39,447 nucleotides of DNA from IMG/VR virus record IMGVR_UViG_3300036864_000384, positions 1 through 39,447 of that record, one strand, 5' to 3'. Positions within the stretch are counted from its first letter, which is position 1. Each line of letters starts with the position of its first letter. The translations under genes were made by a program, and so were the position numbers. Under the pieces are notes generated by a model that saw only the letters and a list, made by a program, of their open reading frames with translations, made no database searches and was not told the origin of the DNA. Source of the DNA: a virus. This document shows positions 12,376-37,307 of this stretch, piece by piece.

Positions 12376-12450
12376 CGCGGGATGGAGCAGGGGTAGCTCG
12401 TCGGGGTTACAGCCCGAAGGTCCCAGGTTCGAGTCCTGGTCCCGCTACCA
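12376..12450 (+). tRNA. Initiator-type tRNA with anticodon UAC (reads GUA start codons)
   Basis: 75 nt, encoded CCA (12448-12450). Acceptor strands CGCGGGA (12376-12382) and TCCCGCT (12440-12446) pair at six positions but leave C1 x U72 unpaired, the hallmark of bacterial initiators (C1 x A72 in E. coli). The D stem GAGC/GCTC gives A11:U24. The anticodon stem TCGGG (12401-12405) with CCCGA (12413-12417) gives the three G:C pairs used in P-site selection by IF3. The loop G-T-TAC-A-G (12406-12412) has U33, anticodon UAC at 12408-12410, and A37. The variable loop is AGGTC; the T arm is CCAGG/TTCGAGT/CCTGG. Stem and joint sequences are close to E. coli tRNAfMet as I remember it, so this is an initiator with a changed anticodon and not a valine elongator. 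Expected to be formylated; probably charged by ValRS (A35, C36) instead of MetRS. It precedes the late module, where 14 ORFs begin with GTA. Confidence 0.94.
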
Positions 12451-15888: not shown

Positions 15889-16093
15889 CACGGTCTGGGT
15901 GCTCTGGCTACAGGTGGGCCACTGCAATCACCTCGTGGGCGTCTACGACAGCAAGGCGGGCGCACTTGCCAACGTGAGGTCCGAGGACCACTTTATCTGC
16001 ACGACCGCAATGAACGAGACCCTGGCGCTCGATCTGATCCCTTACGTTGAACCGCCGCGGTGCCGGGCCGGGCATGAGGAACTCAACATGTAA
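15863..16093 (+). CDS. Hypothetical protein (76 aa) upstream of portal
   Basis: I choose GTG 15863, placed after the purine-rich gggaaggggacg. The frame is open from 15812. The product is beta-rich at first (RNVTLPGDTVWVLWLQVGHC), then GVYDSKAGALANVRSEDHFI and a C-terminal CRAGHEELNM. No recognised family. Its last sense codon is ATG and its stop TAA (16091-16093) overlaps the portal's GTA start codon as GTAA, so translation of this gene could deliver ribosomes to the portal start. Confidence 0.6.
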   Translation: MRNVTLPGDTVWVLWLQVGHCNHLVGVYDSKAGALANVRSEDHFICTTAMNETLALDLIPYVEPPRCRAGHEELNM

Positions 16094-19000
16094 ACCGCCT
16101 TCCCAAAGGAGTCGTCCGGGCCACACCGGTTGACCCCGAAGCCCTCCTCGTCGATTCGTCCGGCCGACCGCTGCGCGCCTCCGCTCTGAGGCAAGGCGAG
16201 CGCGACTATTCGCCTGGTAAACCACTTCCGGCCACCCTGGCCCACGGCGCCGCCCCCCGCTCCACCATCCCCCCCACCTCGGCCAACCTCAGCGCGAGGC
16301 CCCGATCCTGGGCCGGCAAGGACCTCACCGCCTTTGACCAGCTGAGGGCTCTCGCCGACACCGACCTGGTGCGCATCGCCATCCAGGACGTCAAGGGGCA
16401 GATCGAGGGGATGGGCTGGGACGTCGCCCAGGTCGACGGAGAAGAGGTCACTCCCGAGCTGGCAAAGAAGATCGCCGCGGCCAAGGCCTGGATTCGAAGA
16501 CCCGATCCGCTCGCAGGCCGCAACTTCAGGGCGTGCCTGTCGTCCTGGCTCGAAGAGATCCTGGTCACAGACGCCCTGACCCTGTATCCGCTCACCGACC
16601 GCGCGCGGCGCCCGCTGGGGCTGATTCAGATAGACGGGGCCACCATCTACCCGGTGGTCGATTCTCTGGGCCGGCCCCCGCTTCCGCCCGAGATCGCCTA
16701 CCAGCAGATCGTCCACGGCCAGGTGGAGACCGAGTTCACGCTGCCCGAGCTGTGGTACCGGCCCCGGCACGCCCGGCCCGATTGTCCCTACGGCCGCAGC
16801 CCGACCGAGATGGTCCTGCTCACGGTCAACCTGGCCCTACGGTCTCAGCTCTACGACCTGACCTACTACACCGAAGGCTCCATCCCCGAAGGCATCTACG
16901 CGGTGCCCGGGTATGACAACGCCGAGCTCAACGACCTGCAGGAGAACTGGGATGCCGTCCTGGCAGGAGACGACCAGGCGCGCCGGCGGATGCGCTTTGC
17001 GCCCGAGGGTCAGTACCAGGCCACGAAGGACCGGTCGTGGAGCTACGAGTTCCAGGAGTGGCTCGCGAGGGTCATTGCCTGGGCGTTCGGCGTGTCGCCG
17101 ATGCCGATCGCCAAGGTGATGAACCGGGCCACGGCCGAGCAGATGGAAAGCTCGGCGCTGGAGTCCGGCGTCCGCCCCGTGGCCGAGTGGGTGGCGGAGA
17201 TCTTCACCGATTACCTGCAGGGGCCCCTGGGTCTCACCGATCTGAAGTTCGTGTTCGGCTCCGATGAGACGGAAGACGGCTCCCTGGTGTATCAGCGCAA
17301 CGTCGCCTACGCGGGCCACGCCGGGCTGACCCTCAATGAGTTCTTCGAGCAGACCGGAAGCAAGGCCCTGGAAGGGGAGGCCGGCGAGCTGCGGCTCATC
17401 GACACCCCAACCGGTCCCGTGTTCCTTCAGGACCTGCTCGCCCAGCGCGAGCAGTCTTTGAAGGCCGGTGACGCGAAGGTGGATTCATCCCTGATCCAGC
17501 GGGCGTTCCTCGAGGTGCCGGTCATGACCCGCGACGAGCTGCGCGCGTCAATCGGCCTGCCGCCTGTGGGGGGAGCCGAGGGGGCGGAGTTCATCACCAT
17601 CGCCCAGGTCGGTCCCTCTGTCCCGGCAGCGCCAGTCGCCGGCGACCCCGGAAACGCCTCTCCCGCGGATGCGGCAGGGGAGACCGCTGGCGCCACCGTA
17701 GCAGCCGACGATGAGGTCCCAGAGCCCGATCCTGCCGAGGCGGATCTCAAGCGCTGGCAGGCGTTTACCCTCAAGAGACTGAAGGACGGCCGCCCGGTAC
17801 GAAAGTTCGCATCCCAGGCTATCCCATCCACCCTGCACCGGGCGGTCAACTCGGCCCTCGAGCGCATACCGAAGGACGTCTCCCTCGAGGACGCCTCGCG
17901 CGAGGTGCGGGCGATCTTCGACTGCGCCACCCTGCAGCGGCGGATGGAGAAGAGCCCGCCGGCGTCGCTGGTGAAGCCCACCAGGAAGATCGCCAAGGTG
18001 ATCGCAGCCTGGCTCGCGGACCAGAAGGACCGGGTCATCGCGGCTGCGCTGGAAGAGCTGCCCGACCCGAGCAAGGCCGCCGGGGCACCGCTGAGAAAGA
18101 AGATCTCCGACCTCGAGCTCAACGCCGAGGACCTGGTCGATGACCTCTCGCGCGAGATCGCAAAGGCCCTGACCGCGGGCGCCGGCGAGACGGCCAGCAC
18201 CTCTGGATTCTCCCTGGACACCGTCCCCGAGGCGGCGGTGGCCTACGCCAACGAGCGGGCCGCCGAGCTGGTGGGCATGAAGTGGGTCGATGGCGAGCTC
18301 GTCACCAACCCCAACCCGCGCTTCGCCATCACCGAGAGGCTGAGAGAGGACATCCAGGCGAAGGTGACCAAGGCGATAACAGAGGGCTGGTCGCCCGATG
18401 AGCTGAAGGCCGACCTGGCCAAGATGTTCTCCCCCGCCCGGGCCGAGACCATCGCCCGCACCGAGACCGGACTTGCATATCAGGAAGGCGCGCTCAAAGT
18501 TTACGAAGCAGGGGGGCAGGACTTCGTCGACATCCTCGACGGGGCCGGGTGCCTTCCGACGGGGCATGATGACGACGCGCCAGAGGCGGACTCGAGCGCC
18601 AAGGGTGTCGTGCAGACGGAAAGTCAGGCCGACGGTCAGGTCTGGACCCTGGCCCAGCTGAGGGAGCACCGCCTGGGGCATCCCAACTGCCTGCCTGGCT
18701 CAGTTGAAGTGGTTGCACCGAACCGCACCGCGGCGTTCACGCGGTGGTTTGACGGGGAAGTGGTCGTCCTTCACACAGCCGCGGACGATCTCCTCACCTG
18801 TACCCCGAATCACCCGGTACTGAGCGGGAGGGGGTGGGTAGCGGCGAAGGACCTTCGAGAGGGTGACTATGTAATTCGCAGCCTCGATTCTGAGCGGGTA
18901 GCGCGCCTCGTCGATCCAGACTATGACGAGGCTCCAGCCCGAATCGAGAAGGTAGCGGGTTCGTTCCTGGAATCGCTCCCTGTGGCGACCCACGCCGTGC

Positions 19001-19533
19001 CAGCCTCCACCGAAGACTTCCACGGCGATGGAGCCGGAAGCGAGATCTACGTTGTAGGGTCCAACCGCCTTGCACGGGGTGAAGGGGGTCCTGCCCCGAT
19101 GCAGCATCTTTCCCAGCCGGATTTCGATCTCGGATCGATGGGCTCGGGTGCGTTCCTTTCCCAAGGCGCGCCGCGCAAGATCCTCAGCCGTTCGCTTTAT
19201 CCCTCGCAGGGCATCGTGCGCAGCGGCAGCACGCCGCGCGCGCTCCCGCGGCCCGATGCGAGCCTGATGGAGACGGAGGCTGTCCGCCTGTGTTCGCATC
19301 TTGAGCCCAGCAGTTCGAAAGGCACTGCGGACGGCGCCGCCCGAGACTCCGAGGTCGCGGCCGATGGCATCACTGGACTCTCCGGCCTGATAGCGCCGGT
19401 GAAGGTCACGAAGATCCGAAGGGAGAAGTTTTCCGGTCATGTCTACAACCTCGAGACCGAACAGGGGTGGTACGTGGCCGGAGGCATCGTAACACACAAC
19501 TGCGTGCGCGGGACGATCCCGCACGAGGAGTAA
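16090..19533 (+). CDS. Portal protein fused to a MuF-like head-morphogenesis domain, interrupted by an intein; GTA start
   Basis: 1147 residues before splicing, about 876 after. The portal domain occupies roughly residues 85-480 (SWLEEILVTDALTLYPLTDR; YGRSPTEMVLLTVNLALRSQ; IAWAFGVSPMPIAKVMNR). The C-terminal MuF-type domain has AETIARTETGLAYQEGALKV and, across the intein, the HPNC/VRG motif. A portal-MuF fusion is known in phages; the portal forms the DNA channel and the MuF part helps head assembly. Start: GTA 16090. An in-frame TGA at 16075-16077 leaves only GGA-ACT-CAA-CAT before it, and the next usual start is 93 codons later, inside the folded region. GAGG at 16077-16080 is the ribosome-binding site. 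The overlapping ATG-TAA at 16088 is out of frame. Confidence 0.92.
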   Translation, partial: VNRLPKGVVRATPVDPEALLVDSSGRPLRASALRQGERDYSPGKPLPATLAHGAAPRSTIPPTSANLSARPRSWAGKDLTAFDQLRALADTDLVRIAIQDVKGQIEGMGWDVAQVDGEEVTPELAKKIAAAKAWIRRPDPLAGRNFRACLSSWLEEILVTDALTLYPLTDRARRPLGLIQIDGATIYPVVDSLGRPPLPPEIAYQQIVHGQVETEFTLPELWYRPRHARPDCPYGRSPTEMVLLTVNLALRSQLYDLTYYTEGSIPEGIYAVPGYDNAELNDLQENWDAVLAGDDQARRRMRFAPEGQYQATKDRSWSYEFQEWLARVIAWAFGVSPMPIAKVMNRATAEQMESSALESGVRPVAEWVAEIFTDYLQGPLGLTDLKFVFGSDETEDGSLVYQRNVAYAGHAGLTLNEFFEQTGSKALEGEAGELRLIDTPTGPVFLQDLLAQREQSLKAGDAKVDSSLIQRAFLEVPVMTRDELRASIGLPPVGGAEGAEFITIAQVGPSVPAAPVAGDPGNASPADAAGETAGATVAADDEVPEPDPAEADLKRWQAFTLKRLKDGRPVRKFASQAIPSTLHRAVNSALERIPKDVSLEDASREVRAIFDCATLQRRMEKSPPASLVKPTRKIAKVIAAWLADQKDRVIAAALEELPDPSKAAGAPLRKKISDLELNAEDLVDDLSREIAKALTAGAGETASTSGFSLDTVPEAAVAYANERAAELVGMKWVDGELVTNPNPRFAITERLREDIQAKVTKAITEGWSPDELKADLAKMFSPARAETIARTETGLAYQEGALKVYEAGGQDFVDILDGAGCLPTGHDDDAPEADSSAKGVVQTESQADGQVWTLAQLREHRLGHPNCLPGSVEVVAPNRTAAFTRWFDGEVVVLHTAADDLLTCTPNHPVLSGRGWVAAKDLREGDYVIRSLDSERVARLVDPDYDEAPARIEKVAGSFLESLPVATHAVPASTEDFHGDGAGSEIYVVGSNRLARGEGGPAPMQHLSQPDFDLGSMGSGAFLSQGAPRKILSRSLYPSQGIVRSGSTPRALPRPDASLMETEAVRLCSHLEPSSSKGTADGAARDSEVAADGITGLSGLIAPVKVTKIRREKFSGHVYNLETEQGWYVAGGIVTHNCVRGTIPHEE
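18688..19500 (+). mobile_element. Intein (271 aa) inserted at the HPN/C site of the MuF domain
   Basis: The intein begins with Cys (CLPGSVEVVAPN) and has a block-B Thr-x-x-His in LLTCTPNHPVLSGRGWVAA. It ends with block F YNLETEQGWYVAGGIVTHN and its terminal Asn, followed by extein Cys+1 (TGC 19501). These are the N-terminal nucleophile, block-B His, and terminal His-Asn plus Cys+1 needed for splicing. The middle section contains the usual conserved AGSEIYVV and SNRL segments of Hint-domain inserts in phage head proteins, with no LAGLIDADG or HNH motif in this reading frame. The endonuclease is instead encoded on the other strand. Splicing would rejoin HPN to CVRGTIPHEE, the normal MuF C terminus. 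Confidence 0.92.
18700..19440 (-). CDS. Antisense homing-endonuclease-like gene (Vsr/EDxHD-type fold) inside the intein
   Basis: A 246-residue minus-strand ORF lies wholly within the intein. The start is ATG at 19440, eight bases after GAGG on that strand (the open frame extends to 19524 but lacks a better start). The N-terminal 55 residues contain a helix-turn-helix (SSDAIGRDLGVSGGAVRSAF). A Lys/Arg-rich linker follows, then a nuclease-like core: RLGKMLHRGRTPFTPC, YNVDLASGSIAVEVFGGGWH, RHRERFQERTRYLLDSGWSL, VIVWIDE. The order V-D ... V-E-V-F-G-G-x-W-H ... R-x-x-x-L-x-x-x-G-W is that of Vsr-like homing endonucleases as I remember them. Such conserved-looking protein motifs antisense to an equally well-formed intein would be unlikely by chance. 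It probably cuts intein-free portal genes to drive homing. Confidence 0.82.
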   Translation of the reverse strand: MTGKLLPSDLRDLHRRYQAGESSDAIGRDLGVSGGAVRSAFRTAGLKMRTQADSLRLHQARIGPRERARRAAAAHDALRGIKRTAEDLARRALGKERTRAHRSEIEIRLGKMLHRGRTPFTPCKAVGPYNVDLASGSIAVEVFGGGWHGVGRHRERFQERTRYLLDSGWSLVIVWIDEARYPLRIEAANYIVTLSKVLRRYPPPPAQYRVIRGTGEEIVRGCVKDDHFPVKPPRERRGAVRCNHFN

Positions 19534-20051: not shown

Positions 20052-21353
20052 GTAAAAGACCTCAAGATATTCGTCCCCCTCACGAAGATTGACGCCAAGC
20101 AGCAGATGGTCTACGGCGTGCTCGCCGAAGAGGCCGTCGACAAATCCGGCGAGATCTTCGACTACGAAACCAGCAAGCCCCTGTTCCAGGCGTGGTCATC
20201 CGACTTCGAGAAGCGCACGACCGAGGCGGGCCAGGAAGTCAGCAAGGGGAATCTCCGGGCGATGCACGAAGGCATCGCGGCCGGCAAGTTCACGCAGATG
20301 GTGTTCGACGACGCGGCGAAGAAGATCATCGTCGCCGCCCACGTCGTGGACAAAGCCGAGTGGGAGAAATGCGAGAAGGGCGTCTACACCGGCTTCTCGA
20401 TCGGCGGCAAGTACGAGAAGCAGTGGATGGACGAGCAGCTCAAGAAGGTCCGCTACACGGCGCGCCCGGCCGAAGGTTCGATCGTGGACAACGCCTGCAT
20501 GTATGGGGCGACGTTCAGCGCGATCAAGGCCGACGGGGCGGAGGAGCTTCGCAAGTTCGTCGGCGCCCCGGCCCAGAAGGACGCGGCCGCTCTCGCATCC
20601 ACGGCTGACTCGGTCCTCGAGGGGCTCAAGAACCTCCTGGTGCAGGCTTCGATGATGGAGGGGGATCCGTCCGCCTGGACGATCCACGACATCGCGGAAG
20701 CCATGTCGCGCGTGCTGTCGGTGAAGGGGGAGGCCCGCTACAAGATCGTGGTGGAGATGGACGACGTCGCCATGGGCGCGCCCGCGGGGGACCTCAAGAA
20801 GGTCGACGAGGCCAAGCCGACCGATCCCACAGCTCCAGCAGCTGATCCAGTTCCCGATCCGGCCAAACCGGCGGGGGAGAAGCCCTCGGGAGAGGCACCG
20901 GCAGCCGACCCAGTCGCTGTCGATCCGGCGAAGGCGGCAAGCGCCGACACCCTGTCCAAGCTCATCAACGAATCGTTCCAGAAGTCCCTCGAGTCTCTGA
21001 CTCAGACCCTCACCAAGCATCTCGACGACCAGGTCAAGGCGGTGAAAGACGGCATCCCGGAGACGGTCAGCACAACCGTGGGCGATGCCGTGAAGACCGC
21101 GATGACGCCGATCGAGAAGTCGATGGAGGAGGTCAAGAAGGATCTCGAGCTCGTGAAGGCAACGCCGGCGGCCGTAGGTCGTCCGGTGCACACAGCAGGA
21201 AAGACCATCGGCAGCGGGCCGGGTGGAGGCGGCGGATCCGCCCCCATGGAGGTGGTGCAGAAGTTCCTCGACGAGGCGCAACGCTCCGGCAAGGTCGATT
21301 CCCAGGCAATGAAGCAGCTGCGGCTCCAAGCGGCCACGGCGGCCATGCCCTAA
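20052..21353 (+). CDS. XkdF-like prohead protease with C-terminal scaffold-like region; GTA start
   Basis: 433 residues. The N-terminal 170 residues resemble XkdF-type serine proteases of phage heads: FVPLTKIDAKQQMVYGVLAE, candidate catalytic His in NLRAMHEG, and candidate Ser in GVYTGFSIGGKYE. After residue 250 comes a Pro/Ala/Asp-rich linker, then a coiled coil (TLSKLINESFQKSLESLTQT onward) of the kind found in scaffolds. Protease-scaffold fusions mature the capsid. Start: GTA 20052, six bases after AGGAG. The in-frame stop TAG (20040-20042) is three codons upstream and no conventional start lies between. The first usual start (ATG 20106) would delete the first beta strand. The overlapping ATG-TAA at 20050 is out of frame. 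Confidence 0.88.
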   Translation, partial: VKDLKIFVPLTKIDAKQQMVYGVLAEEAVDKSGEIFDYETSKPLFQAWSSDFEKRTTEAGQEVSKGNLRAMHEGIAAGKFTQMVFDDAAKKIIVAAHVVDKAEWEKCEKGVYTGFSIGGKYEKQWMDEQLKKVRYTARPAEGSIVDNACMYGATFSAIKADGAEELRKFVGAPAQKDAAALASTADSVLEGLKNLLVQASMMEGDPSAWTIHDIAEAMSRVLSVKGEARYKIVVEMDDVAMGAPAGDLKKVDEAKPTDPTAPAADPVPDPAKPAGEKPSGEAPAADPVAVDPAKAASADTLSKLINESFQKSLESLTQTLTKHLDDQVKAVKDGIPETVSTTVGDAVKTAMTPIEKSMEEVKKDLELVKATPAAVGRPVHTAGKTIGSGPGGGGGSAPMEVVQKFLDEAQRSGKVDSQAMKQLRLQAATAAMP

Positions 21354-21380: not shown

Positions 21381-22832
21381 GTAAACGGACTGCTTCAATC
21401 CATCAGCGAGGAATCTCTCGCAAAGGCGGCCGAGCTCTTCAAGGGCGCCTTCGACGTCAAGAAGACGGCCATCGATCTTTCCACCGGCCTGACCGGTGTG
21501 AACCTCGAAGCGCCGGCCAAGCTGCTCTACCCGCTCCTGTCTCCCTACCGACAGACCGTCGGCAGGAAGGTCATGGGCGGAAAGAACTCCGAGCACAAGC
21601 GAATCCTCACCGTGAAACCCTCCGGATCCCTGTTCGCCGCGGAAGGCGTGCGGGCAACCGGCTGGGCGATCACGAAGGATGCGCCCACGGTTTCGTTCAA
21701 GTCCATGGGCCAGCTCGGTGACTACACCTGGGAATCCGAGATCGCCGGCCGCAACTACGAAGACATCAAGCAGCGCACCAGGACGCTGAACCTTCTGTCG
21801 GCGATGCAGCTGGAGGAAGGCGCGATCTTCGGCGGAAACGTCACGGCCCTGGGCACTCCCACCGGACTGACCACGACTCCAGCCACCACGGGCGCCGCGG
21901 CGGTCGGGGGCGTGGGAATCGCGGCGGCGACCTACCAGGTCCGCGTGGCGGCACTCAGCCACGAGGGCATGAGGCAGGCCTCCAGAGTTGCCCGCGTGGA
22001 CAAGGCGGCGGCGCAGAACTTCGACGCTTCCCTCGTTGTTCCCACGCAGGGCGGCACCCTCGGCATCACCGCGGCTCAGGCCAACGTGGCGGCGGTGGTT
22101 GGCGGTTCGACCGATGGGATCATCGGTCTGACGTGGAACCCGATCGCCGGTGCGTTCGGCTTCGCGGTCTACGTGGACAACCACCTGCAGTGCATTTTGC
22201 CATCCACGACCAAGTGCACACTCACCGGCATCAACACCACCGGGGAGGCGGTACCGGGGGCGGACAGCTCCGCCAACGCGAACGCCTTCAACGGGATGGT
22301 CGCTCAGATCGTGGCGGCCGCAACCGGGTCCATGAAGAAGCGGGTCAACACGAATCTGGGCACGCCCTCGGGCAACCAGATCACCGTGATCGCCGATGCC
22401 ATCCAGGACGGCTACGACCAGTTCAAGGTCCAGCCGGATCGGTTGCTGGTGGCGTGGGACGTCCACGACCAGCTCGATCGCAAGCTGGCCTCGGTGGCCA
22501 ACGACCGGATCAACCTGAACTACATGGTCGGGCCGGAAGGTCCGAAGTTCGAGCAGCTCAGGTTCTACCCCTCGCCGATCGACGGACGACAGATCCCAAT
22601 CGAGCAGCAGCCCAACCTCTACGGAGGCCAGGTCCTGGGCGTGCTCGACGGTGTGCCGATCCCCGACAGCGAGATCCCGGCAGCATGGCAGATGCACATG
22701 GGCAGCGACTGGGTGCTGCTCGACTATGCGGTCGTCAACCCGAAGCAGGAGTTCGAGAGCAGGTCCTTCGGCGCTCTGGCGGGGTATGCCCCGGCGCTTC
22801 AGTTCATCCTGTACGACGTCCAGCGGGCGTAA
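21381..22832 (+). CDS. Major capsid protein (HK97-fold type) with an inserted Ig/FN3-like domain; GTA start
   Basis: 483 residues. An N-terminal arm precedes LLYPLLSPYRQTVGRKVMGG, then a core with FKSMGQLGDYTWESEIAGRN and EDIKQRTRTLNLLSAMQLEE. C-terminal capsid blocks include NQITVIADAIQDGYDQFKVQ and DWVLLDYAVVNPKQEFESRS. Residues about 150-280 form a Gly/Ala/Thr/Val-rich insertion with AAATYQVRVAALSHEG and WNPIAGAFGFAVYVD, as in fibronectin- or Ig-like surface domains. Start: GTA 21381, six bases after AGGAG. The frame is closed by TAA at 21351-21353 with no usual start between, and the next one (GTG 21498) would remove 39 residues. The most abundant virion protein thus appears to depend on GTA initiation. 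Confidence 0.88.
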   Translation, partial: VNGLLQSISEESLAKAAELFKGAFDVKKTAIDLSTGLTGVNLEAPAKLLYPLLSPYRQTVGRKVMGGKNSEHKRILTVKPSGSLFAAEGVRATGWAITKDAPTVSFKSMGQLGDYTWESEIAGRNYEDIKQRTRTLNLLSAMQLEEGAIFGGNVTALGTPTGLTTTPATTGAAAVGGVGIAAATYQVRVAALSHEGMRQASRVARVDKAAAQNFDASLVVPTQGGTLGITAAQANVAAVVGGSTDGIIGLTWNPIAGAFGFAVYVDNHLQCILPSTTKCTLTGINTTGEAVPGADSSANANAFNGMVAQIVAAATGSMKKRVNTNLGTPSGNQITVIADAIQDGYDQFKVQPDRLLVAWDVHDQLDRKLASVANDRINLNYMVGPEGPKFEQLRFYPSPIDGRQIPIEQQPNLYGGQVLGVLDGVPIPDSEIPAAWQMHMGSDWVLLDYAVVNPKQEFESRSFGALAGYAPALQFILYDVQRA

Positions 22833-23509: not shown

Positions 23510-24151
23510 GTAAACACGATCATCGACATCGGCCAGCTGAAGGCATCGGGCTTCCGCGGGTTTGACGGCCTGGCGGACGACGTTCTGCAGCGCAGCATCG
23601 AGGCGGCCACGGCCGAGATTGAAAAGAAGATCGGGCCGCGCAAGGTCGTGGAGGCCACCTACACCGAGTGGTACGACGGGCTGAGGGCCGCGGGCCGGAG
23701 CAAGGACGAGCTCTATCTCGAGAAGTACCCGGTGTCGGAAGTCACGCTGGTTCAGGAAGACGGCGTGACCCTGACCACGGGGACCGGTTACGACAGCGCG
23801 GGCACCATCCAGGTCCTAGTCGAGGCCGCGCGCGGGGTTCTGAGGCGCCGGCCCGGGGGGGCGGATATGTCACTCGCTGGGATGTCGGCCTGGCGCCGGT
23901 GGTCCGGCCGGTACCAGAACATCAAGGTCGTCTACAAGGCGGGATGGGCGTCCGGGTCGGTGCCGGCGGACCTCACCCAGGTCTGCATCGAGCTGGCCCT
24001 GATGCTCTACAAGCAGTCGAGCCGGTCGGGCTCCGGGAGCATGTCGATGTCCGGGGCGTCCGTGGAAGCGATCGAGGAGCTGTCCGAACGGGGGCAGCGG
24101 GTGATCCGAAGGTACGAGCCCAAGCTGCGGCCGCGGATGCGAGCTGCCTAA
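23510..24151 (+). CDS. Head-tail connector/adaptor-like protein; GTA start
   Basis: The 213-residue product opens NTIIDIGQLKASGFRGFDGL followed by LQRSIEAATAEIEKKIG, the helical opening of head-completion (gp6/gp15-like) adaptors. It continues with TEWYDG and NIKVVYKAGWASGSVPADLT, a family-typical 'Y-x-A-G-x(n)-P-x-D-L' segment, and helices to the end. It should sit beneath the portal. Start: GTA 23510, six bases after AAGGG. An in-frame TGA (23489-23491) is six codons upstream with no conventional start between, and the next start (GTG 23648) would lose 46 residues including the first helices. The overlapping ATG-TAA at 23508 is out of frame. Confidence 0.82.
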   Translation, partial: VNTIIDIGQLKASGFRGFDGLADDVLQRSIEAATAEIEKKIGPRKVVEATYTEWYDGLRAAGRSKDELYLEKYPVSEVTLVQEDGVTLTTGTGYDSAGTIQVLVEAARGVLRRRPGGADMSLAGMSAWRRWSGRYQNIKVVYKAGWASGSVPADLTQVCIELALMLYKQSSRSGSGSMSMSGASVEAIEELSERGQRVIRRYEPKLRPRMRAA

Positions 24152-24175: not shown

Positions 24176-24787
24176 GTAGGAAGGAACGGCGGGATCACCT
24201 TCGACGGCGACAACATGGATCGCTTCCTGGGAGATCTCTGGAGCAAGCTGCCCGGCACGATCTCCCGCGGCCTGCGCTCCGGCGTCAACCTGATGGTGCG
24301 GGAAGTCGTCACGACCAAGCTCACGGACGACAACCCGCCCTACCTCAACCGCCGCACCGGCAACTTCATCCGATCCGTTGGTGCCTCTCCATCCTTCAAG
24401 GTGGAGGGCAGCCTGGCGGGCGCCAGCGCCATCTTCAGCGGTCAGTTCGGCAGCAACCTCGATTACGCCAGAAAGCACGAGGAAGGCGGGACGTTCACCG
24501 AGCAGGTCCGGGCGCACACCCGCGTGAAGAACAGGAGTCGTGCCGCCGAGGTGCGCGCGAAGACTCGGCGCAAGAAGTTCCTGACCGCCTCGCAGCTCAA
24601 GGCGATCTCGCCCTACATCCACGTGCGCGCGCACACGCGCACCGTCACCTACCGCGCGCGCCACATGTTCGGCGACACGATGAAACAGAACCACTTCGGC
24701 GCCGCCCGCCGGATGCGCAGGGCGCTAGATCTGCTTCACAAGAACCGCCGGATCCCGACCCTGTCTGAAATCGCGGGAGGTGGATGA
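24176..24787 (+). CDS. HK97 gp10-like head-tail joining protein; GTA start
   Basis: The 203-residue product is basic. It has FLGDLWSKLPGTISRGLRSG near the N terminus, then PYLNRRTGNFIRSVGASPSF, LDYARKHEEGGTF and a C-terminal RRMRRALDLLHKNRRIPTLS. The 'R-T-G-x-L/F-x-x-S ... Y-A-x-x-x-E-x-G' pattern is that of gp10-like neck/tail-completion proteins. Start: GTA 24176, six bases after GAGGAG. The in-frame TAA (24149-24151) is eight codons upstream without any usual start. ATG 24215 is the first alternative and has no ribosome-binding site. Its stop overlaps the next gene. Confidence 0.82.
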   Translation, partial: VGRNGGITFDGDNMDRFLGDLWSKLPGTISRGLRSGVNLMVREVVTTKLTDDNPPYLNRRTGNFIRSVGASPSFKVEGSLAGASAIFSGQFGSNLDYARKHEEGGTFTEQVRAHTRVKNRSRAAEVRAKTRRKKFLTASQLKAISPYIHVRAHTRTVTYRARHMFGDTMKQNHFGAARRMRRALDLLHKNRRIPTLSEIAGGG

Positions 24788-25282: not shown

Positions 25283-25561
25283 GTAAACAGCAATCGTCTG
25301 CGGTTCGGCGGGCCCGAGCTTCCCGAGGGCACCCGCACCTACTACCAGGATCCTGAAGGCGGGATGCACTTCGCCCGCCCGGGCGACGAGGTCGACCCCG
25401 ACAAGGTCCACACCCCCCCAGCTTCCTACTTCATCGAGACGGGCCGTGCCTCCATGGTGACGGCTTCCGATCTCGACTCCAGCAGCAGCACAGAACCATT
25501 CAACCCAGAGCCGTCGGACAGCTCGTCTGAACCCGAGGCCGAACAGGAGGAACACGTGTAG
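25283..25561 (+). CDS. Hypothetical tail-region protein (92 aa); GTA start
   Basis: The sequence opens NSNRLRFGGPELPEGTRTYY, continues GMHFARPGDEVDPDKVHTPP, and ends in an acidic Ser/Glu-rich tail (SDSSSEPEAEQEEHV). The folded part resembles small proteins encoded just before tail tube genes. GTA 25283 lies seven bases after GGAGG in aaggagggagtctt. A TTG at 25259 is in frame but has no ribosome-binding site and lies inside the previous gene. The overlapping out-of-frame codons are TTG-TAA. Its stop TAG overlaps the next GTA leader as GTAG. Confidence 0.72.
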   Translation, partial: VNSNRLRFGGPELPEGTRTYYQDPEGGMHFARPGDEVDPDKVHTPPASYFIETGRASMVTASDLDSSSSTEPFNPEPSDSSSEPEAEQEEHV

Positions 25562-26880: not shown

Positions 26881-28791
26881 GTAGGCGGTTCGGATCTCAC
26901 GATTCGCTCGTTCATCGAGTACATCTTCAGGGGCAAGGGCGTCAAGGACGCTCAGGCCGGCCTGAAGGAAGTCGGCCACGCATCCGACGTCGCCGGCAAG
27001 AAGCTCTCCGCCATGGGCGGCGTCACCGAGAAACTCGGCGGGACGCTTACCCGCTACCTGGGCGCGGCCGCGCTCGGGGCTCTGGCCAAATCCTCCGTTG
27101 AAGAGTTCGCCAAGATCGAACGGGCCTTCAACGGCCTGCGCCTCCAACTGCAGGGCCTGGGGTATGACGCCGACCGAGAACTGCCGAAGGTCCAGGCATT
27201 CCTCGAGGGGATTCGCGCCGGCGGGGGCGGCCTCGTCTCTGAAACTCTCCCCGCGCTGCGCCAGCTGCTCGGTCTGACCGGAGACCTCGGCGCCGCCATG
27301 CGCGCCACCCGGCTCGTCTCCGACATGGCTGAAAGCGGGATGGGTGATTTCAGCCAGGCCCTCGATGCCGTTGCGAGCATCCTGTCGGGCCGCGTCTCGC
27401 GATCCATAAAGCAGTTCGGGATCAACGTCAGTGATGACGTGATCGAAAAGTCGGTGGATGCCTCCAAGTTCATGCAGATCCTGATCGACAAGTTCGATGG
27501 GTTCGGGGCGAAGATCGACGACACGCAGAACCAGCTCGACAAGCTGTCTGGTAGCTGGGAGCGCCTCAAGAACACGATTGGCGAGAGCGTCGCCAAGGTC
27601 GGACAGTTCGCGATGTACGTCCCGGCCGCTATCGCCGGCGTCGGCGCCGCCCTGGGTCATGCGTATACCAACTGGGCCGGCATCACGCGCGATGGCTGGA
27701 CTGGCATTGCAGACGAGTTCAAGAAGGGGATGGAGTCGATCCTGGGGACCACCCAGGAGACGTCCGAATCGACCTTCGACTTCCTCAAGGCGAGTGCCGA
27801 CCACGTGGCCGATCTCACGCTGCTCGAGGTCGCCGGACAGAAGGCGAAGGCGGATGCGGCGCAGGAGGCGGCCAAGGCCGAGAAGAAGGCCGCCGAGGAG
27901 AGAATCGCCGCGTTCATGCAGCTCGTCGCCAAGCGCACGGCCGCGGAAGTCGAGGCCCACGAGCGATCACTCGATCTGACGGAGGAGCAGCGCGAGGCGC
28001 TGAGAAAGGCCGACGAGGACTTCAGCGCCACGCAGCGTGAGAAGTACGAGCTGATTCAGAGAGAGATCGAAGCCGCGGCCGACGCCGAGCGCGCCAGGGT
28101 CGAAGCAGCGCTCCAGACCGACAAGCTCACACTTGAGAGTCGCCAGCTGCTCGAAGATGAATTGATCCGTCTGGACCAGCAGAAAGCCTTGCGTGCAGCC
28201 ACCCTCGCCGATGAGGTCGCCGCCATCAACACGCAGGCGGCCCATAAGGATCTCTTGCTGGCTCGGGCTTTGGCGAGACAAAAGATCGAAACCTACAAGA
28301 CGATCGCGCAGGCATCGGTCGACTTTTCGGTTGCCGTCTTCGGCCAGAACAAGATCGCAGCCATCGCGCAGGCGATTATTGACACAGTCTCCGCCGTGCA
28401 GTCTGCGCTGGCCGACCTGCCTTATCCATACAACATCGTCGTCGCCGCTATTGTCGCCGCCATCGGCGCCGCCAACGTGAACAAGATTCGGACCACGGAA
28501 ATGGAAAGCAGCGGGACGTTCGACACTCCAACCAACGATCAGATAGCCAGGGTCGGTACAAAGAAGTCCGCGGAGGACTTCGTCAGGCTCGCTCAGGAAG
28601 GAATTGGTCAGGGCCTCAGAGCGGCGTTTGCCCTTCCCGGCGGTCAGGGGGGCGGCGCCGCCGGGGAAGCAGGTGGCGTCACCTACCAGATCACCATCAA
28701 CGGGATGTACGGCGGCGATTCCGGCCTGAGAGATCTTCGCGACGTCCTCAATCGGGCGGAGCGCCTGCGTGCGCCCAGAAGGCTGAGGTGA
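26881..28791 (+). CDS. Tape measure protein; GTA start
   Basis: The 636-residue product opens SDLTIRSFIEYIFRGKGVKD and has a central helical domain (LPALRQLLGLTGDLGAAMRA), a hydrophobic stretch (YVPAAIAGVGAALGHAYTN), and long coiled coils (ERIAAFMQLVAKRTAAEVEA and on). The second hydrophobic region is NIVVAAIVAAIGAANVNKI, and the end is Gly-rich. This is a rather short tape measure, so a short tail is expected. Start: GTA 26881, one base after the chaperone's TGA and seven after GGAG. In-frame TGA 26848-26850 is ten codons upstream with no usual start between, and the next (27013) would delete 44 residues. The overlapping ATG-TAG at 26879 is out of frame. Confidence 0.87.
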   Translation, partial: VGGSDLTIRSFIEYIFRGKGVKDAQAGLKEVGHASDVAGKKLSAMGGVTEKLGGTLTRYLGAAALGALAKSSVEEFAKIERAFNGLRLQLQGLGYDADRELPKVQAFLEGIRAGGGGLVSETLPALRQLLGLTGDLGAAMRATRLVSDMAESGMGDFSQALDAVASILSGRVSRSIKQFGINVSDDVIEKSVDASKFMQILIDKFDGFGAKIDDTQNQLDKLSGSWERLKNTIGESVAKVGQFAMYVPAAIAGVGAALGHAYTNWAGITRDGWTGIADEFKKGMESILGTTQETSESTFDFLKASADHVADLTLLEVAGQKAKADAAQEAAKAEKKAAEERIAAFMQLVAKRTAAEVEAHERSLDLTEEQREALRKADEDFSATQREKYELIQREIEAAADAERARVEAALQTDKLTLESRQLLEDELIRLDQQKALRAATLADEVAAINTQAAHKDLLLARALARQKIETYKTIAQASVDFSVAVFGQNKIAAIAQAIIDTVSAVQSALADLPYPYNIVVAAIVAAIGAANVNKIRTTEMESSGTFDTPTNDQIARVGTKKSAEDFVRLAQEGIGQGLRAAFALPGGQGGGAAGEAGGVTYQITINGMYGGDSGLRDLRDVLNRAERLRAPRRLR

Positions 28792-28795
28792 CCAT

Positions 28796-31087
28796 GTAGA
28801 GTTCACCGCCTCCACGCGCCGGCGCTACATCGAGCGCCACCACTACCAGGACATCGTCGAGCCCGTCGGGCTGATGGAATACCGGGCGCTGCTTCTGGGC
28901 CCGGGCGGCATCGAGTTCGATGTCACCGATCGTCTTGGCGAAAAGGGCCTCGGGAAGATCAAGGGCGCCACGGAAGAAAACTTCCTCGAGCTGACCCACG
29001 GGGAAGTCTCCCTCGAGCTGGCAGACGAAGACGGGGCGGTCTCCCAGTTCTTCTCGGGGGTTTCCTCCTCGGACCTCTACGAGGTCATCCTCGAGCGCTT
29101 CACGGGGGCGCGCCGGAACCGCTGGGAGCGGATCTTTGGCGGCATCCTCGATCTGCCCTGGTCCATCCGCATCGACCACCGCGCGCGCTCAATCAATCTG
29201 CAGGCGTTCTCCTATTCCAAGCTCCTCGAACGGGCCTCGGCCGACACCATCAAGAGAAGCCTGGACGGCCTGACGGGTTCGGTGACCGCCACTTCCAAGG
29301 TCGTCACCATCTCCGACACCGCAAACATCTTCGCCGGCGACAGGATCCGCCTGCGCGACAACACCAACGACGAAGAGCAGACCGTCGCCAAGGTGCTCAC
29401 TGGTACGACCGTCCAGACCATCGACGCCTGGGACAACACCTTTGCCGCGCTGACCCCCCTGACGGTTGAGACCCCCTACTACCGCGACAAGGGCCTCCAG
29501 TTTCTCGCAGATGCCCTGTTTGCGGCCGCGGGAATCGCGAGCCGGGCGATCTCCATCCTCAATCCCCTGGCGCTGTTTCCGGTCGCCACCCCGATGAACA
29601 CCACGACCTACCCCAGAGACGTGGACACCGGGATCGTCGTGGATCCGCGCAGCTTCACCCAGCGTGGCGCCAACATCGACGTGCGGATGACCGACGACGG
29701 GCCCACCGACCGGCGCGCGGAGACCCCGGGCCCGGCCGAGGCGTGGACGTCTTTCACCACGGGCGCCCTTCGCACCATCAACGACTGGACGCCCTACCTC
29801 GACGCCGAGCCCGCGAACTTCCCGGACAACGGTTCCTTCCTGCTCGACGACGGGCTGCAGCACGCCTCGGACCACACCGCCAACCTCCTGTACGACCTGC
29901 GGGAGGGCGGGACCAAGTTCGACCTCTACAGCCTCGTGGTGGGCGGGGGAGGCATCGGGGGCTCGACGCTCCTGATCGAGGCTTTCAGCACGGTCACGGC
30001 CAATCAGTGCCATGCAGGGATCGACGTCGACCCGGTCACCGGCGACGTCTGGATGAGCTGCACCGGAAAGACCGGCGACGCCGGCGACAAGGACTCCGTG
30101 AAGGTCTGGGACGGGGCGGTGCTCACGTCGATCGAGACCGCGTTTTCCGGCCAGGTGCGCTACCTGCGCCGCCTGAAGCTGGTCGCCGTCCACGAGTACG
30201 ACCCGGGCGCATCCCATGGCAACAACCCGAAAGAGACCATGCGGCTCTACGACGCCGCCACCCGGACCCTGGTCAAGACGATCGCCGTCCCTCAGAACTT
30301 CTGGGCGTGGAGCCTGCGGGTCTGGGCGGTAGAAGAGGGGATCCGGATCGCGGGACTCTACACCCTGCTCGGAACCACGCGCCTGCGGATCTGGGATGCG
30401 AGCTGGGTCCAGGTCGCCGATTACCAGGTCGCAGACAAGGCTTCGGGAATCGCCGGCACCAAGGCGTTTCTTTCCGTGTTCACCGACTCGGGCGGCAAGG
30501 AGTTCCTGGTCGGGTGCGCCGGCGAGCAGTTCTTCGTGGTGGCCAAGGGCTACGCCGGGGTGATCCCGTATGCGGACTTTGCCGGGATGTCGTGTGCGGA
30601 GGGTCTCCGGGAGCTCGCCATCGCGAGCATTTCCTACATCGAGGTGGACCACTTCAAGGCCGGCACGATCCGCGGGAGGGCCAGCCGGGATGAGGAAGCC
30701 CGCTCCCAGGCAATCGCGATCGACGAGCCCCTCGAGCGGGTGAGTTGGCCGATCTCGGAGTTCTACAGGACCTCCGCCACCATCACCGGGAGCGATTCAG
30801 CCGGCGGCAAGATCGAAGAGACCGCGGGCGATTTGGGGGATTCGGCTCACAGGCTGGAGCTTGGCGGCGAGCTCATCCAGACGGGGGGCCTTGCGGAAGC
30901 CATCGCCCAGGAGTACGTGTCGGTGCTCTCCGTGCCGCGTCGGCAGGAAGAGCTTACCTTTGCCGAGACCGGCCGGCTCGTCGACGCCGGAGACTACCTG
31001 GATTTCGACGGCGCACTCTGGAAGGTCCTGGACGCAGACCTTGACACCCGGGCCCGGCGCATCACGGCGCGGGTCCTGGAGGACTGA
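28796..31087 (+). CDS. Tail tip/baseplate hub-like protein with propeller-like middle; GTA start
   Basis: 763 residues. The N-terminal region (RRYIERHHYQDIVEPVGLME; FLELTHGEVSLELADEDGAV; WERIFGGILDLPWSIRIDHR) and the C-terminal region (RRQEELTFAETGRLVDAGDY; VLDADLDTRARRITARVLED) resemble tail hub proteins. Between them, about residues 390-600, motifs recur at intervals (DSVKVWDGAVLTSI, MRLYDAATRTLVKTI, RLRIWDASWVQVADY) like blades of a beta propeller, which may bind a host surface. Start: GTA 28796, seven bases after GAGG. In-frame TGA 28784-28786 is three codons upstream (GGT-GAC-CAT), so no usual start exists before ATG 28874. The overlapping ATG-TAG at 28794 is out of frame. Confidence 0.8.
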   Translation, partial: VEFTASTRRRYIERHHYQDIVEPVGLMEYRALLLGPGGIEFDVTDRLGEKGLGKIKGATEENFLELTHGEVSLELADEDGAVSQFFSGVSSSDLYEVILERFTGARRNRWERIFGGILDLPWSIRIDHRARSINLQAFSYSKLLERASADTIKRSLDGLTGSVTATSKVVTISDTANIFAGDRIRLRDNTNDEEQTVAKVLTGTTVQTIDAWDNTFAALTPLTVETPYYRDKGLQFLADALFAAAGIASRAISILNPLALFPVATPMNTTTYPRDVDTGIVVDPRSFTQRGANIDVRMTDDGPTDRRAETPGPAEAWTSFTTGALRTINDWTPYLDAEPANFPDNGSFLLDDGLQHASDHTANLLYDLREGGTKFDLYSLVVGGGGIGGSTLLIEAFSTVTANQCHAGIDVDPVTGDVWMSCTGKTGDAGDKDSVKVWDGAVLTSIETAFSGQVRYLRRLKLVAVHEYDPGASHGNNPKETMRLYDAATRTLVKTIAVPQNFWAWSLRVWAVEEGIRIAGLYTLLGTTRLRIWDASWVQVADYQVADKASGIAGTKAFLSVFTDSGGKEFLVGCAGEQFFVVAKGYAGVIPYADFAGMSCAEGLRELAIASISYIEVDHFKAGTIRGRASRDEEARSQAIAIDEPLERVSWPISEFYRTSATITGSDSAGGKIEETAGDLGDSAHRLELGGELIQTGGLAEAIAQEYVSVLSVPRRQEELTFAETGRLVDAGDYLDFDGALWKVLDADLDTRARRITARVLED

Positions 31088-31093: not shown

Positions 31094-31558
31094 GTAGGCT
31101 ACCGCTGGCACCCGCTGGTCCGCATGACGCCGCAAGACGGCCCGGCCGAGGTCGTGGACCTCACCACGGTCTTTGTCTCTGGCGGCAGGACCTACAAGGT
31201 CCTCACCGACATCGACCTGGTCTACGAGCCCGAGACCGAGGCGCGCGACACCATCAACCGCCGGTCCCGGCCCCTGCTGCTGGGGTATCGCCCGGTGATC
31301 ACCATGGTCTTCCAGCTCAACATCATGAGCTTCTACGCCCAGATCGCACAGCTCGCCTCCCGGCTGATGGATCCGTACTGGGTCGTCGAGCTCGCGCTGG
31401 ACAACGGCGCCACCTACCGCCAGATTGTGCTCAGGCGCGCGCCGTCGCCTGAACCCTTCGGAAACAAGACCGTCGCCGGCGCCAGCTTCAAGATGACCGT
31501 GGCCTGCCGGGACCTCATCGCCGAGCTTTCGCCCATCGCCACGGGCACGGCCTGGTAG
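31094..31558 (+). CDS. Tail protein (154 aa); GTA start with the clearest isolation
   Basis: The product opens GYRWHPLVRMTPQDGPAEVV and contains VFVSGGRTYKVLTDIDLVYE, VITMVFQLNIMSFYAQIAQL and ASFKMTVACRDLIAELSP. It is probably a small tail tip component. The previous gene's TGA (31085-31087) is in the same frame, and only GGC and TCT separate it from GTA 31094. No ATG, GTG or TTG lies near in any frame; the overlapping NTG is CTG. GGAGG (31078-31082) is 11 bases upstream, with a closer GAGG at 31086-31089. ATG 31124 lacks a ribosome-binding site. GTA is therefore almost forced as the start. Confidence 0.82.
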   Translation, partial: VGYRWHPLVRMTPQDGPAEVVDLTTVFVSGGRTYKVLTDIDLVYEPETEARDTINRRSRPLLLGYRPVITMVFQLNIMSFYAQIAQLASRLMDPYWVVELALDNGATYRQIVLRRAPSPEPFGNKTVAGASFKMTVACRDLIAELSPIATGTAW

Positions 31559-31568: not shown

Positions 31569-34500
31569 GTAGACCGAACCGCCCTGCGCACCGCCCGACG
31601 CTTCGAATGGTTCTTCCGCTTGCTCGCCACGGCCGGCCTGGTGCTGGCCTTCTCCATCCTCACGCTGCACGCGGCCGTCAAGACCACGACCATCCAGGGC
31701 AGGGTCGTCGCCGTGACCGGCTCGCCACTTTCCGGCTACATCACGGCTGCGCTTTCGACCTCCGGATCAGCGATGGACGGCACGACCTCGGTGCGTGTCG
31801 TCGGGTACTACCGCGGCACCATCGACCCCAACGGCATGGTCACCGGGCTTGCCCTCGTGCCCAACGACGCCATCACCCCAGGCGGGACCTACTACGTCGT
31901 GAGCATCGTCTGGAAAGACGCGGCCGGCAGGGGCGGCAACGCGAACGAGCTATGGTCGGTCGCGAGCGACCCGAACGTGATCGACATCGGGCTCATCGCC
32001 CGGCTCAAGGTGGCCCCGGGCCTGGACGTGCCGAAGATGAGAAACAGCACCGGCACCTGCCCGCCGCCTGGCTCGTTCTGCGACGACGCCTCAGACGTCG
32101 GGGTCCAGTGGCTCTGCACCGACCTGGCCGCGGCCTACTACTGTCAGAGCGCAGGCGTGGTGGCTCAGGTCTCGGGATCCGGATCGGGCTACAACCGCGC
32201 CCAGGAGGAAGGCTCGAACCTGACGCCCAGAACGACCGTCAACTTCGTCGGCGTTCCCCTCACCGTGACCGACAATCCATCCGCGCAACGGACCGATGTC
32301 ACGCTCAGTGTGACGCCGTCGAGTTCCCCGAGCTGCGTCGGCAGCAATAGGATCATCACCACGAACCAGGGCATGACAGGAGGAGGGACCCTCGCCAGCG
32401 ACCTCACCCTGGGGTTCCGCCTCCACACCAGCGAGACAGGGGGAACGCCGGCGATCGCCTCGGAGAGCGGGCTCCAGATGATGGGTTCACTGATAGGCGG
32501 CGGTGTCGGTATCACGCTCCTGGCCGGATGCAGCGATGGCCAGATCCTCAAGTGGGACATCGGTGAGGCGACGTGGAACTGCGCAGACGATGGCGGGGTC
32601 GGCGGTGGAGGAGGAAACAGCTTCACCACCATCAACGCGCCCAGTGGGACGGACCCGGTGGCAAGCGGCGCGACAGACACCTTGGGCCTATCAGCGGTCG
32701 CACCCGTCACCATCACCGGGGACGCCCTCTCCGACACCCTCACATTTCAGGTGACGCAGGCCAGCGCATCGGCTCCCGGCGTCGTGCAGCTCTCCTCCGA
32801 TCTCGCGGGGGCCGGATCCGGTCCAACGTCCCCGCAGGTCGCAGACGACAGTCACAACCACACCACGACGACGGTCTCCGCCCTGGACGCCTCCAACGAC
32901 TTCACCGCGGGCCTCATGCCACTACTCTACGGCGGAACCGGCTCCAACCTCTCAGGAACCGGCGGAACCGGGCAGTTCCTGAAACAGAGCTCCGCCGGCG
33001 CCGGCGTGACCGTTTCGGTGATCGGGGTCGGGGATCTTCCAGCCCATGCGCACACGGCCTCCGACATCACCAGCGGCTCTATGGATATCGCGCGCGGGGG
33101 GACGACGGAGACGGTCAGCACGGAGGACGCTGTCCTTGTCGGTTCCGGATCGGCCGACTGGCAGCCGAAGGTGATCCCCGACTGCGACATCGCGTCGGGC
33201 AACAACAACCCGGCGGTCAACTACGACCAGGTGACGAACACCTTCACCTGCAGGCAGATCAACCTCGACCCCGACCACACCGTCATCGACCCGGCGATCC
33301 ACACCGATGTCGAAGCGACCGGGAGCCTCGCCACGGGTGACCTGTTCTGGCGCAAGTCCAGCGGCAAGTGGAGCAACCTTGCGCGCGGGACCAACGGACA
33401 GTGCCTCACCTCAACGGCGACCGATCTTGCGTGGGGGAGCTGCGCGGGCGGTGGAGGCGGATACGCCACGATCCAGGAGGAGGGGAGCCCCGTCACCGTC
33501 CGAACGGTATTCAACTTGATCGGCGCTGCTCTCACGGCGGCAGACAACGCCGGCGCATCAAGAACGGATGTCACCCTTTCGCAGAGCCCGGCCTCCGCGT
33601 CTGTCGTGGGGACGGGTCGCCTCGTTTCTGTTTCAGGAACTGGCCTCTCCGGCGGCGGGGACCTCTCGGCCGACCTGACTATCACCCTCTCCGCGAACGT
33701 CATGCTGGACAACGAGGCGTCGACGGTGGCCTCGGCCGGGACGCAGGTCATCAACGACCCCGTGAACATTCTGCCTGACGCGACCAACGGCGTGACGGTG
33801 GACGCCGCCGGTCTGCTCACGAAGGCCGGCACCGGCAGTGTCCAGGCCGACGCAGTCGTATGCTCCGGCTCCTGCATCTCAGACGCCGAGGTAGACGACG
33901 GGATCACGATCAGCAATATGACGCAGATCGGGACCCGCCCATTCACCTCCCTGACGGCGAGCTGCACCGATGCGCAGGTCGTAGGGGGCAACGCCGGCGC
34001 GACGGCCCTCGAATGCCAGGCTGATGACGACGTCCCAGACGCCGGCGACTTCGGAGCGCTGGCCCTTTCCGGGGACGTTGCCAGCACGGGGCTCAGCACG
34101 ACGATCGGCGCGGACAAGATCCTCGAATCCATGCTGAAAGTGGTCGATTCTCCGGCCGACGAGGAGTGCCTGACCTACGAGGCTACGGGTGGCGACTTCC
34201 AATGGGAGACGTGTGGAGCTGGCGGCTCCGGCGACATCACCGACGTCTTCAACTGCGCGTCCGGGGATTGCGCGTCCGTTGCACTCGCCGACGGGGATCT
34301 GCTCGACGGGTCCGGTGTCAACAACAGCGCGACGACCGAGGGGATCAAGCTCCCCCAAGCGGCCGATGTCTCGACGGGAACCGCGGAGGGGCAGATCGGG
34401 TGGGACACAGACGACGACACGCCATTCATCGGAGATGGATCGGGAGTCAAGCCGATCACTGGTCGCGACTGGAGTTACTTCCGACAGGTCGGCACGTCGC

Positions 34501-35027
34501 CTGTAGAGAGGCTGTGGTCACCCAACGTTTCCGGGGCCGCGTCGCTCAGCCAGTCGACGTTCACCACCGGCGTCTACCGCGCCACCCCATTCCTGACGGG
34601 AAGAGGGGGAACCATCGATCGAGTGGGGGTCAGAGTTACGACCGGGGCGGCCTCGACGAACTTTCGGATCTGCCTCTACGATTCGACGTCGGACACGAAC
34701 CTCTACCCCAACAATCTGATCCTGGACGTGGGCTCGCTTTCGTCCGTCTCCACCGGATGGATCAATGCGACAGTCAGCCAGGCGCTCAAGCCCGGCAAGC
34801 TCTACTGGTTCGCGTTTGAAAACGACTCCGCCTCCCCGCAGTTTCGATCCATTTCAGGCGTCGGGTCGGTGCCGATCCTTGGGTACGACAATCCGCCGAC
34901 GACCGACGCGGGGACAGGATGGACGGTGGCGCACACGTTCGGGGCGTGCCCCTCGACATTCCCAGCCAGCGGCACTGTGATTTCTGGCGCCGTGTCGCCG
35001 GTCGTCAACGTGAGGTACTCGAATTGA
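31569..35027 (+). CDS. Tail fibre protein with N-terminal hydrophobic segment; GTA start
   Basis: 1152 residues. A basic N terminus (DRTALRTARRFEWFF) is followed by a membrane-like helix (LLATAGLVLAFSILTLHAAV), unusual for a fibre. A beta domain follows, then long Gly/Ser/Thr/Asp-rich repeats: a unit with QEEGSNLTPRTTVNFVG...TGGGTLASDLTL recurs later as QEEGSPVTVRTVFNLIG...SGGGDLSADLTI. The C-terminal 160 residues are a probable receptor-binding domain (VSQALKPGKLYWFAFENDSA; GWTVAHTFGACPSTFPASG). Start: GTA 31569, seven bases after AGGAG. The overlapping ATG-TAG at 31567 is out of frame. The first usual in-frame start, TTG 31620, would cut into the hydrophobic helix. Confidence 0.84.
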   Translation, partial: VDRTALRTARRFEWFFRLLATAGLVLAFSILTLHAAVKTTTIQGRVVAVTGSPLSGYITAALSTSGSAMDGTTSVRVVGYYRGTIDPNGMVTGLALVPNDAITPGGTYYVVSIVWKDAAGRGGNANELWSVASDPNVIDIGLIARLKVAPGLDVPKMRNSTGTCPPPGSFCDDASDVGVQWLCTDLAAAYYCQSAGVVAQVSGSGSGYNRAQEEGSNLTPRTTVNFVGVPLTVTDNPSAQRTDVTLSVTPSSSPSCVGSNRIITTNQGMTGGGTLASDLTLGFRLHTSETGGTPAIASESGLQMMGSLIGGGVGITLLAGCSDGQILKWDIGEATWNCADDGGVGGGGGNSFTTINAPSGTDPVASGATDTLGLSAVAPVTITGDALSDTLTFQVTQASASAPGVVQLSSDLAGAGSGPTSPQVADDSHNHTTTTVSALDASNDFTAGLMPLLYGGTGSNLSGTGGTGQFLKQSSAGAGVTVSVIGVGDLPAHAHTASDITSGSMDIARGGTTETVSTEDAVLVGSGSADWQPKVIPDCDIASGNNNPAVNYDQVTNTFTCRQINLDPDHTVIDPAIHTDVEATGSLATGDLFWRKSSGKWSNLARGTNGQCLTSTATDLAWGSCAGGGGGYATIQEEGSPVTVRTVFNLIGAALTAADNAGASRTDVTLSQSPASASVVGTGRLVSVSGTGLSGGGDLSADLTITLSANVMLDNEASTVASAGTQVINDPVNILPDATNGVTVDAAGLLTKAGTGSVQADAVVCSGSCISDAEVDDGITISNMTQIGTRPFTSLTASCTDAQVVGGNAGATALECQADDDVPDAGDFGALALSGDVASTGLSTTIGADKILESMLKVVDSPADEECLTYEATGGDFQWETCGAGGSGDITDVFNCASGDCASVALADGDLLDGSGVNNSATTEGIKLPQAADVSTGTAEGQIGWDTDDDTPFIGDGSGVKPITGRDWSYFRQVGTSPVERLWSPNVSGAASLSQSTFTTGVYRATPFLTGRGGTIDRVGVRVTTGAASTNFRICLYDSTSDTNLYPNNLILDVGSLSSVSTGWINATVSQALKPGKLYWFAFENDSASPQFRSISGVGSVPILGYDNPPTTDAGTGWTVAHTFGACPSTFPASGTVISGAVSPVVNVRYSN

Positions 35028-37032: not shown

Positions 37033-37307
37033 TCGAGTCCGTCCTGCGAGCCCTGGCCGGGCAGGTCCCGCTGCTCCTCGTGGTGGGTGTGGGACTGGGC
37101 TGGGGTCTGCGCGAGCTGCGGGGAATGCATCGCGAGATCAAGGCTCTCTCCAGCATCGCGGGGGAGGCCAGAGACGCCGCGCGCGAGCTAAAGATCCGCA
37201 TCGAGGAGAAGGTTGCCACGGCCGAGCGCGAGCACGATGATTTCAGAGACAGGATTCACGCTCTGGAGACGCGCGGCCGCGTCCGGCGGAGCCGTCAGGG
37301 AAGCTGA
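37029..37307 (+). CDS. Membrane-anchored coiled-coil protein of the lysis cassette (92 aa); GTA start
   Basis: GTA 37029 overlaps the previous gene's TAA (GTAA), seven bases after GGAGG. The product opens IESVLRALAGQVPLLLVVGV and GLGWGLRELRG, one membrane helix, then a charged helix (LSSIAGEARDAARELKIRIE; KVATAEREHDDFRDRIHALE) and a basic end. One membrane anchor plus a coiled coil before a holin candidate suggests a lysis accessory or spanin-like role. It is the only GTA start in the set preceded by C and not T. The next in-frame usual start (GTG 37080) would remove half the membrane helix. Confidence 0.7.
   Translation, partial: VIESVLRALAGQVPLLLVVGVGLGWGLRELRGMHREIKALSSIAGEARDAARELKIRIEEKVATAEREHDDFRDRIHALETRGRVRRSRQGS

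Follow-up and report, generated by a model that had tools for sequence, protein, structure and literature searches.

A viral genome record encodes a tRNA that combines the body of a bacterial initiator with the anticodon UAC, and the same genome carries a series of late genes whose coding sequences begin at GTA. The explanation that we regard as very likely is that this dedicated, probably valine-charged tRNA starts the GUA-initiated late genes of the phage. The whole stretch of DNA that was analyzed, referred to here as the window, is IMG/VR virus record IMGVR_UViG_3300036864_000384, positions 1 to 39,447 (39,447 nucleotides, 66% G+C). In gene order, the tRNA lies between an early module, with genes for exonuclease-like and Cas4-like proteins, a HerA/terminase-like ATPase, a replication initiator, ParB and an IS110-type transposase, and a late module, with genes for terminase, portal-MuF, protease, probable capsid, connector, a tape-measure candidate and others. 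The IS110-family transposase gene (10904-11680) is directly upstream of the tRNA region. Matches to the window ParB were scattered and weak only, giving no host assignment.

12376..12450, + strand: initiator-type tRNA, anticodon UAC (12408-12410), encoded CCA (ARAGORN, Rfam, element comparison)

ARAGORN places the TAC anticodon at tRNA position 33, and the Rfam tRNA model RF00005 matches the same interval with 54 bits (E 4.8e-9). The sequence reads CGCGGGA-TG-GAGC-AGGGGTA-GCTC-G-TCGGG-GTTACAG-CCCGA-AGGTC-CCAGG-TTCGAGT-CCTGG-TCCCGCT-ACCA. It has the non-Watson-Crick 1x72 apposition that is a hallmark of bacterial initiators, in the form CxU, along with the formylation elements G2:C71, C3:G70, G4:C69 and A11:U24 and the three consecutive G:C pairs 29-31/39-41 (G29-31:C39-41). 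The anticodon A35 and C36 and the base A73 agree with an elongator tRNA-Val, but the paired 1:72 end and the elongator anticodon stem are missing, their places being taken by the CxU mismatch and the three G:C pairs; the CAU anticodon of methionine identity is likewise absent. The tRNA is of the initiator type, yet by its anticodon it is no tRNAfMet. With E. coli tRNAfMet it shares 77% identity and the elements at 2:71, 3:70, 4:69, 11:24, 29-31:39-41 and 73. It departs from that tRNA in its 1x72 mismatch, which opposes C to U in place of C to A, in its anticodon loop, GUUACAG rather than CUCAUAA, and in having G at both 32 and 38, which also sets it apart from a typical tRNA-Val. U34 might allow the tRNA to read GUG as well.

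Across 5,426 E. coli genomes, the window tRNA had a median of 4 matches per genome (E <= 0.01), and 7 of the 7 natural E. coli records among the matches listed are annotated as tRNA-Met; because of this copy number and naming, the tRNA looks like an initiator and not an elongator tRNA-Val. The best-ranked E. coli match lies inside the initiator tRNA array of the engineered strain BLK16. In this BL21 derivative, one of the initiator tRNA copies (2218347-2218423; L386 301-377) carries the anticodon CAC and bears the annotation tRNA-Val. Matches in phage records were CAU initiator tRNAs in every sequence inspected, and the initiator-like tRNAs of named phages closest to the window tRNA, in all cases inspected, likewise had CAU. 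The first-pass annotation had read the window tRNA as an initiator rather than an elongator tRNA-Val from C1xU72, A11:U24, the three G:C pairs, the encoded CCA and UAC; all these features are present, joined by G2:C71, C3:G70, G4:C69 and A73, and at the sequence level the assignment holds on both the identity elements and the E. coli matches. Its further claim, that GTA-start genes occur in the same genome, is borne out by 12 such genes in the window.

Coding stretches were delimited with a codon-usage gene finder to which no start rules were applied. In the 12 late genes listed below, coding signal sets in at a GTA or close to one; for the portal gene it sets in 141 nt downstream of the GTA:

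16090..19533, + strand: portal-MuF fusion with an apparent intein near the C-terminus; 6 other contigs also have GTA at residue 1; phrog_2662
20052..21353, + strand: head maturation protease, GTA start; AGGAG 6 nt upstream; phrog_9427
21381..22832, + strand: probable major capsid protein, GTA start; AGGAG; phrog_13692 (unnamed)
23510..24151, + strand: head-tail adaptor, GTA start; no canonical start nearby; phrog_442
24176..24787, + strand: GTA-start gene with no assigned function; AGGAG..ctgatGTA; no canonical start near the coding start
25283..25561, + strand: small GTA-start gene; AAGGAGG..cttGTA; TTG upstream at 25259
26881..28791, + strand: tape-measure candidate, GTA start; no canonical start nearby; weak tape-measure PHROG matches
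28796..31087, + strand: GTA-start gene, 763 aa; GAGGTGA..catGTA; no canonical start nearby
31094..31558, + strand: GTA-start gene, 154 aa; coding signal from GTA; next ATG 30 nt downstream
31569..35027, + strand: GTA-start gene, 1152 aa; AGGAG..catGTA; no canonical start nearby
37029..37307, + strand: small GTA-start gene, less certain; GGAGG..cgcGTA; no U at -1; no canonical start nearby
37320..37724, + strand: small GTA-start gene; AGGAG..cgtGTA; GTG 21 nt downstream

Most of these GTA codons are preceded by a Shine-Dalgarno motif, with 4-nt matches only at 16090, 23510 and 26881, and for most of the genes ATG, GTG and TTG are absent nearby; the portal gene has none of the three nearby and an in-frame stop shortly upstream. 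Two places, 35015 (GTA or TTG) and 36655/36658 (GTA-ATG), were left out of the set as ambiguous. Residue 1 of the protease aligns with the ATG of several distant homologs, the ATG of distant homologs of the head-tail adaptor aligns near its residue 1, and the adaptor homolog on contig L398 appears to start with GTG at about window residue 1. The capsid gene is named as such, with probability, because of gene order. GTA starts are unevenly divided between early and late genes (p 0.026), but the split is not a clean one because several late genes start with ATG or GTG. The apparent intein occupies residues ~868-1137, in the MuF part of the portal-MuF fusion (Pfam PF14890, 28.4 bits, under the curated cut-off), and its site is a gap in the relative G001.

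An unsupervised test compared all 64 codons at the starts of genes lacking a nearby ATG, GTG or TTG. GTA was the most enriched codon, present in 8 of 11 such window genes (0.58 expected) and, in a stricter gene set, in 8 of 9 (0.51 expected); the close relatives gave 7 of 7 (0.34 expected). The controls showed no such enrichment: distant portal relatives without the UAC tRNA yielded GTA in 0 of 8 cases against 1.0 expected (216 genes), and 67 other, unrelated viral contigs yielded 2 of 26 against 4.4, that is, below expectation (530 genes). GTA makes up only 22 of 548 internal valine codons.

Orthologs carry GTA at the same positions. The alignment of the portal proteins of the window phage and G001 starts exactly at the GTA (VNRLP versus VDRLP), and with this alignment five further portal contigs were found, L397-L401, of which L397, L399 and L400 are near-identical. 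GTA stands at residue 1 of the portal in 6 of the 6 further viral contigs found (47-54% identity, at least four of them distinct), with an in-frame stop 24-48 nt upstream across six contigs (24-39 nt in L397-L401), and the L397-L401 portals have no alternative start at hand. The protease orthologs of L397 and L398 start with GTA, the capsid ortholog has GTA at residue 1 in L397 and residue 2 in L398, and the start of the gene that follows the portal is ATG in the window, G001 (L161) and L398 but GTA in L397 and L400. Same-position GTA in orthologs, exchange between ATG and GTA, and the negative controls thus support the GTA starts; taken with the enrichment, the pattern is hard to explain unless GTA serves as a start codon in this lineage.

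G001, a relative of the window phage, possesses both a UAC initiator-type tRNA and the GTA portal start. The two tRNAs are 77% identical, so the UAC tRNA has persisted through substantial divergence. The fragment L399 has GTA starts but no UAC tRNA upstream of its terminase gene, and none was seen in L397, L398, L400 and L401, which mostly lack the stretch upstream of terminase. A distant portal relative (28% identity), L008, has an initiator-like CAU tRNA with a U1xU72 mismatch at 454-528, about 3 kb upstream of the portal match, a placement resembling that of the window tRNA.

Scans of viral contigs for similar tRNAs gave no match with a strict pattern, and L032, matched by a relaxed pattern, was rejected as not being a tRNA. 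With very lax patterns and a structural filter, only the window, L161 (G001) and L225 (G002) tRNAs were kept among the matches listed. In the search of phage contigs for non-CAU initiators that the first-pass annotation had proposed, covering any anticodon not ending in U, all full-feature matches were UAC. Besides the window, UAC initiator-type tRNAs are carried by G001, G002 and G003 (L384); a scan of 1,486 cellular genomes from four phyla yielded none with the pattern used. G002 and G003 are low-GC viral contigs related to each other, with no detectable protein homology to the window phage. For the first-pass annotation, related phages with the tRNA but no GTA-start genes would have counted against its reading: G001 has both, whereas G002 and G003, both fragments, have the tRNA and yielded no convincing GTA starts, and so fit that description in part. 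Two G002 genes first considered as GTA-start candidates were rejected because they start with ATG. In G002 (L378, L379) and G003 (L388, L389), the UAC tRNA is beside the terminase module, and the terminase start of G003 at 17344 (-) is ambiguous, GTA or TTG.

The loop GUUACAG is common to all four UAC initiator-type tRNAs and differs from the E. coli loop CUCAUAA, as might be expected of a decoy or backup initiator resisting toxins that cut the initiator anticodon loop, with the GTA starts sustaining late genes after tRNAfMet cleavage. A VapC toxin that acts on initiator tRNA is reported (PMC4105405), as are phage tRNAs that evade defenses by changes in the anticodon loop (PMC10264068). As a replacement for initiation at GUA by a dedicated tRNA we consider this unlikely; it appears compatible with that explanation rather than exclusive of it.

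The context of the GTA starts is distinctive: U is at -1 in 11 of the 12 window GTA starts and in 0 of 19 canonical starts (p 1.4e-7), as well as in most GTA starts of relatives. This U could form a pair with A37 of the tRNA; extended pairing in initiation is cited in PMC9841429. In addition, 8 of the 12 have A at -2 (p 0.007 versus canonical starts), most of them giving AUG-UAR, which lends some weight to host fMet starting at the overlapping AUG (cAUGUAr), followed by slippage or termination-reinitiation that brings the ribosome to GUA, a step during or after which the tRNA would act; start-stop termination-reinitiation at AUGUGA/GUGUGA in E. coli is a published precedent (PMC9841429). However, the GTA starts of relatives have CUG, GUG or UUG in this place, one of the window GTA starts lacks an NUG at that place altogether, and an initiator body disfavors elongation. 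Because the AUG is exchanged in relatives while the U mostly persists, it is the U, not the overlapping AUG, that is the kept feature, and we judge this route highly improbable. Least credible of all is an ordinary phage elongator tRNA-Val(UAC) supplementing valine decoding, with GTA starts as annotation artifacts: ARAGORN does label the tRNA as tRNA-Val, by anticodon, but every tested initiator element is present, the nearest E. coli tRNAs are those annotated tRNA-Met at about 4 per genome, internal GTA is so rare (0.23% of codons) that supplementation is poorly motivated, and the GTA starts are conserved among orthologs.

Under initiation at GUA by the phage tRNA, valine charging by the host valyl-tRNA synthetase is probable, being expected for UAC with A73 from the identity rules of E. 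coli tRNA-Val (A35, C36 and A73; PMC9976931). PMC8576571 describes the two principal identity elements of initiators and how they have been combined with an altered anticodon. With the initiator elements that it has, the tRNA should be open to formylation, bind IF2 and enter the P site (PMC8576571, PMC11497404, PMC4611024). Formylation by the host methionyl-tRNA formyltransferase would draw on the 1x72 mismatch, G2:C71, C3:G70, G4:C69 and A11:U24, and acceptance by IF2 and the 30S P site on the three G:C pairs. Initiation would then occur at Shine-Dalgarno-positioned GUA codons, with which the host CAU initiator would pair poorly, and A37 might aid this by forming a fourth pair with the U that precedes the codon. 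The phage would in this way set aside a second start code for some of its late morphogenesis genes, making their translation dependent on its own tRNA.

To our knowledge, all natural initiator tRNAs known from bacteria decode AUG and bring in methionine. The first-pass annotation was aware of no natural initiator with a UAC anticodon, and the literature searched (subscription papers and most preprints lying outside it) likewise gave engineered cases, no natural one, and no report of GTA starts in phages. The window tRNA shares with bacterial tRNAfMet (CAU), including phage copies, the acceptor mismatch, acceptor-stem pairs, A11:U24 and three G:C pairs, and departs from it in UAC, G32, G38 and an expected valine in place of methionine. 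Some phages recode stop codons by suppressor tRNAs. The window phage resembles these in pairing a phage tRNA with recoded late genes, but here a start codon is involved, not a stop, and GTA is still valine internally. Engineered anticodon-mutant initiators (amber; artificial codons in cell-free systems) similarly join an initiator body and a changed anticodon with a matching non-AUG start (PMC8576571, PMC13232202); unlike these laboratory constructs, the window tRNA is natural, and the matching start codons are conserved across a virus clade. According to PMC5472188, Streptomyces sigR has a natural GTC start, with reported IF3-mediated repression. This is another non-NTG start, but in a single host gene, whereas the window phage has a dedicated tRNA and many genes.

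Judging from these genomes, it is likely that a phage clade evolved a second, orthogonal start, with GUA read by a valine-charged phage initiator, (formyl-)valine N-termini and production of key capsid proteins tied to the phage tRNA, and that the cassette reached unrelated phages. Candidate purposes are late-gene timing, independence from the host initiator, and escape from toxins that cut tRNAfMet. Gene callers that admit only ATG, GTG and TTG would, in phages of this kind, miss or truncate the genes for portal, protease and capsid. If the interpretation is true, nature would have its own equivalent of engineered orthogonal initiation, one that synthetic biology could readily take up as a tool; the genetic code would here be altered at the start codon and not at the stop codon, and the system would suggest a switch or an escape route for late phage genes.
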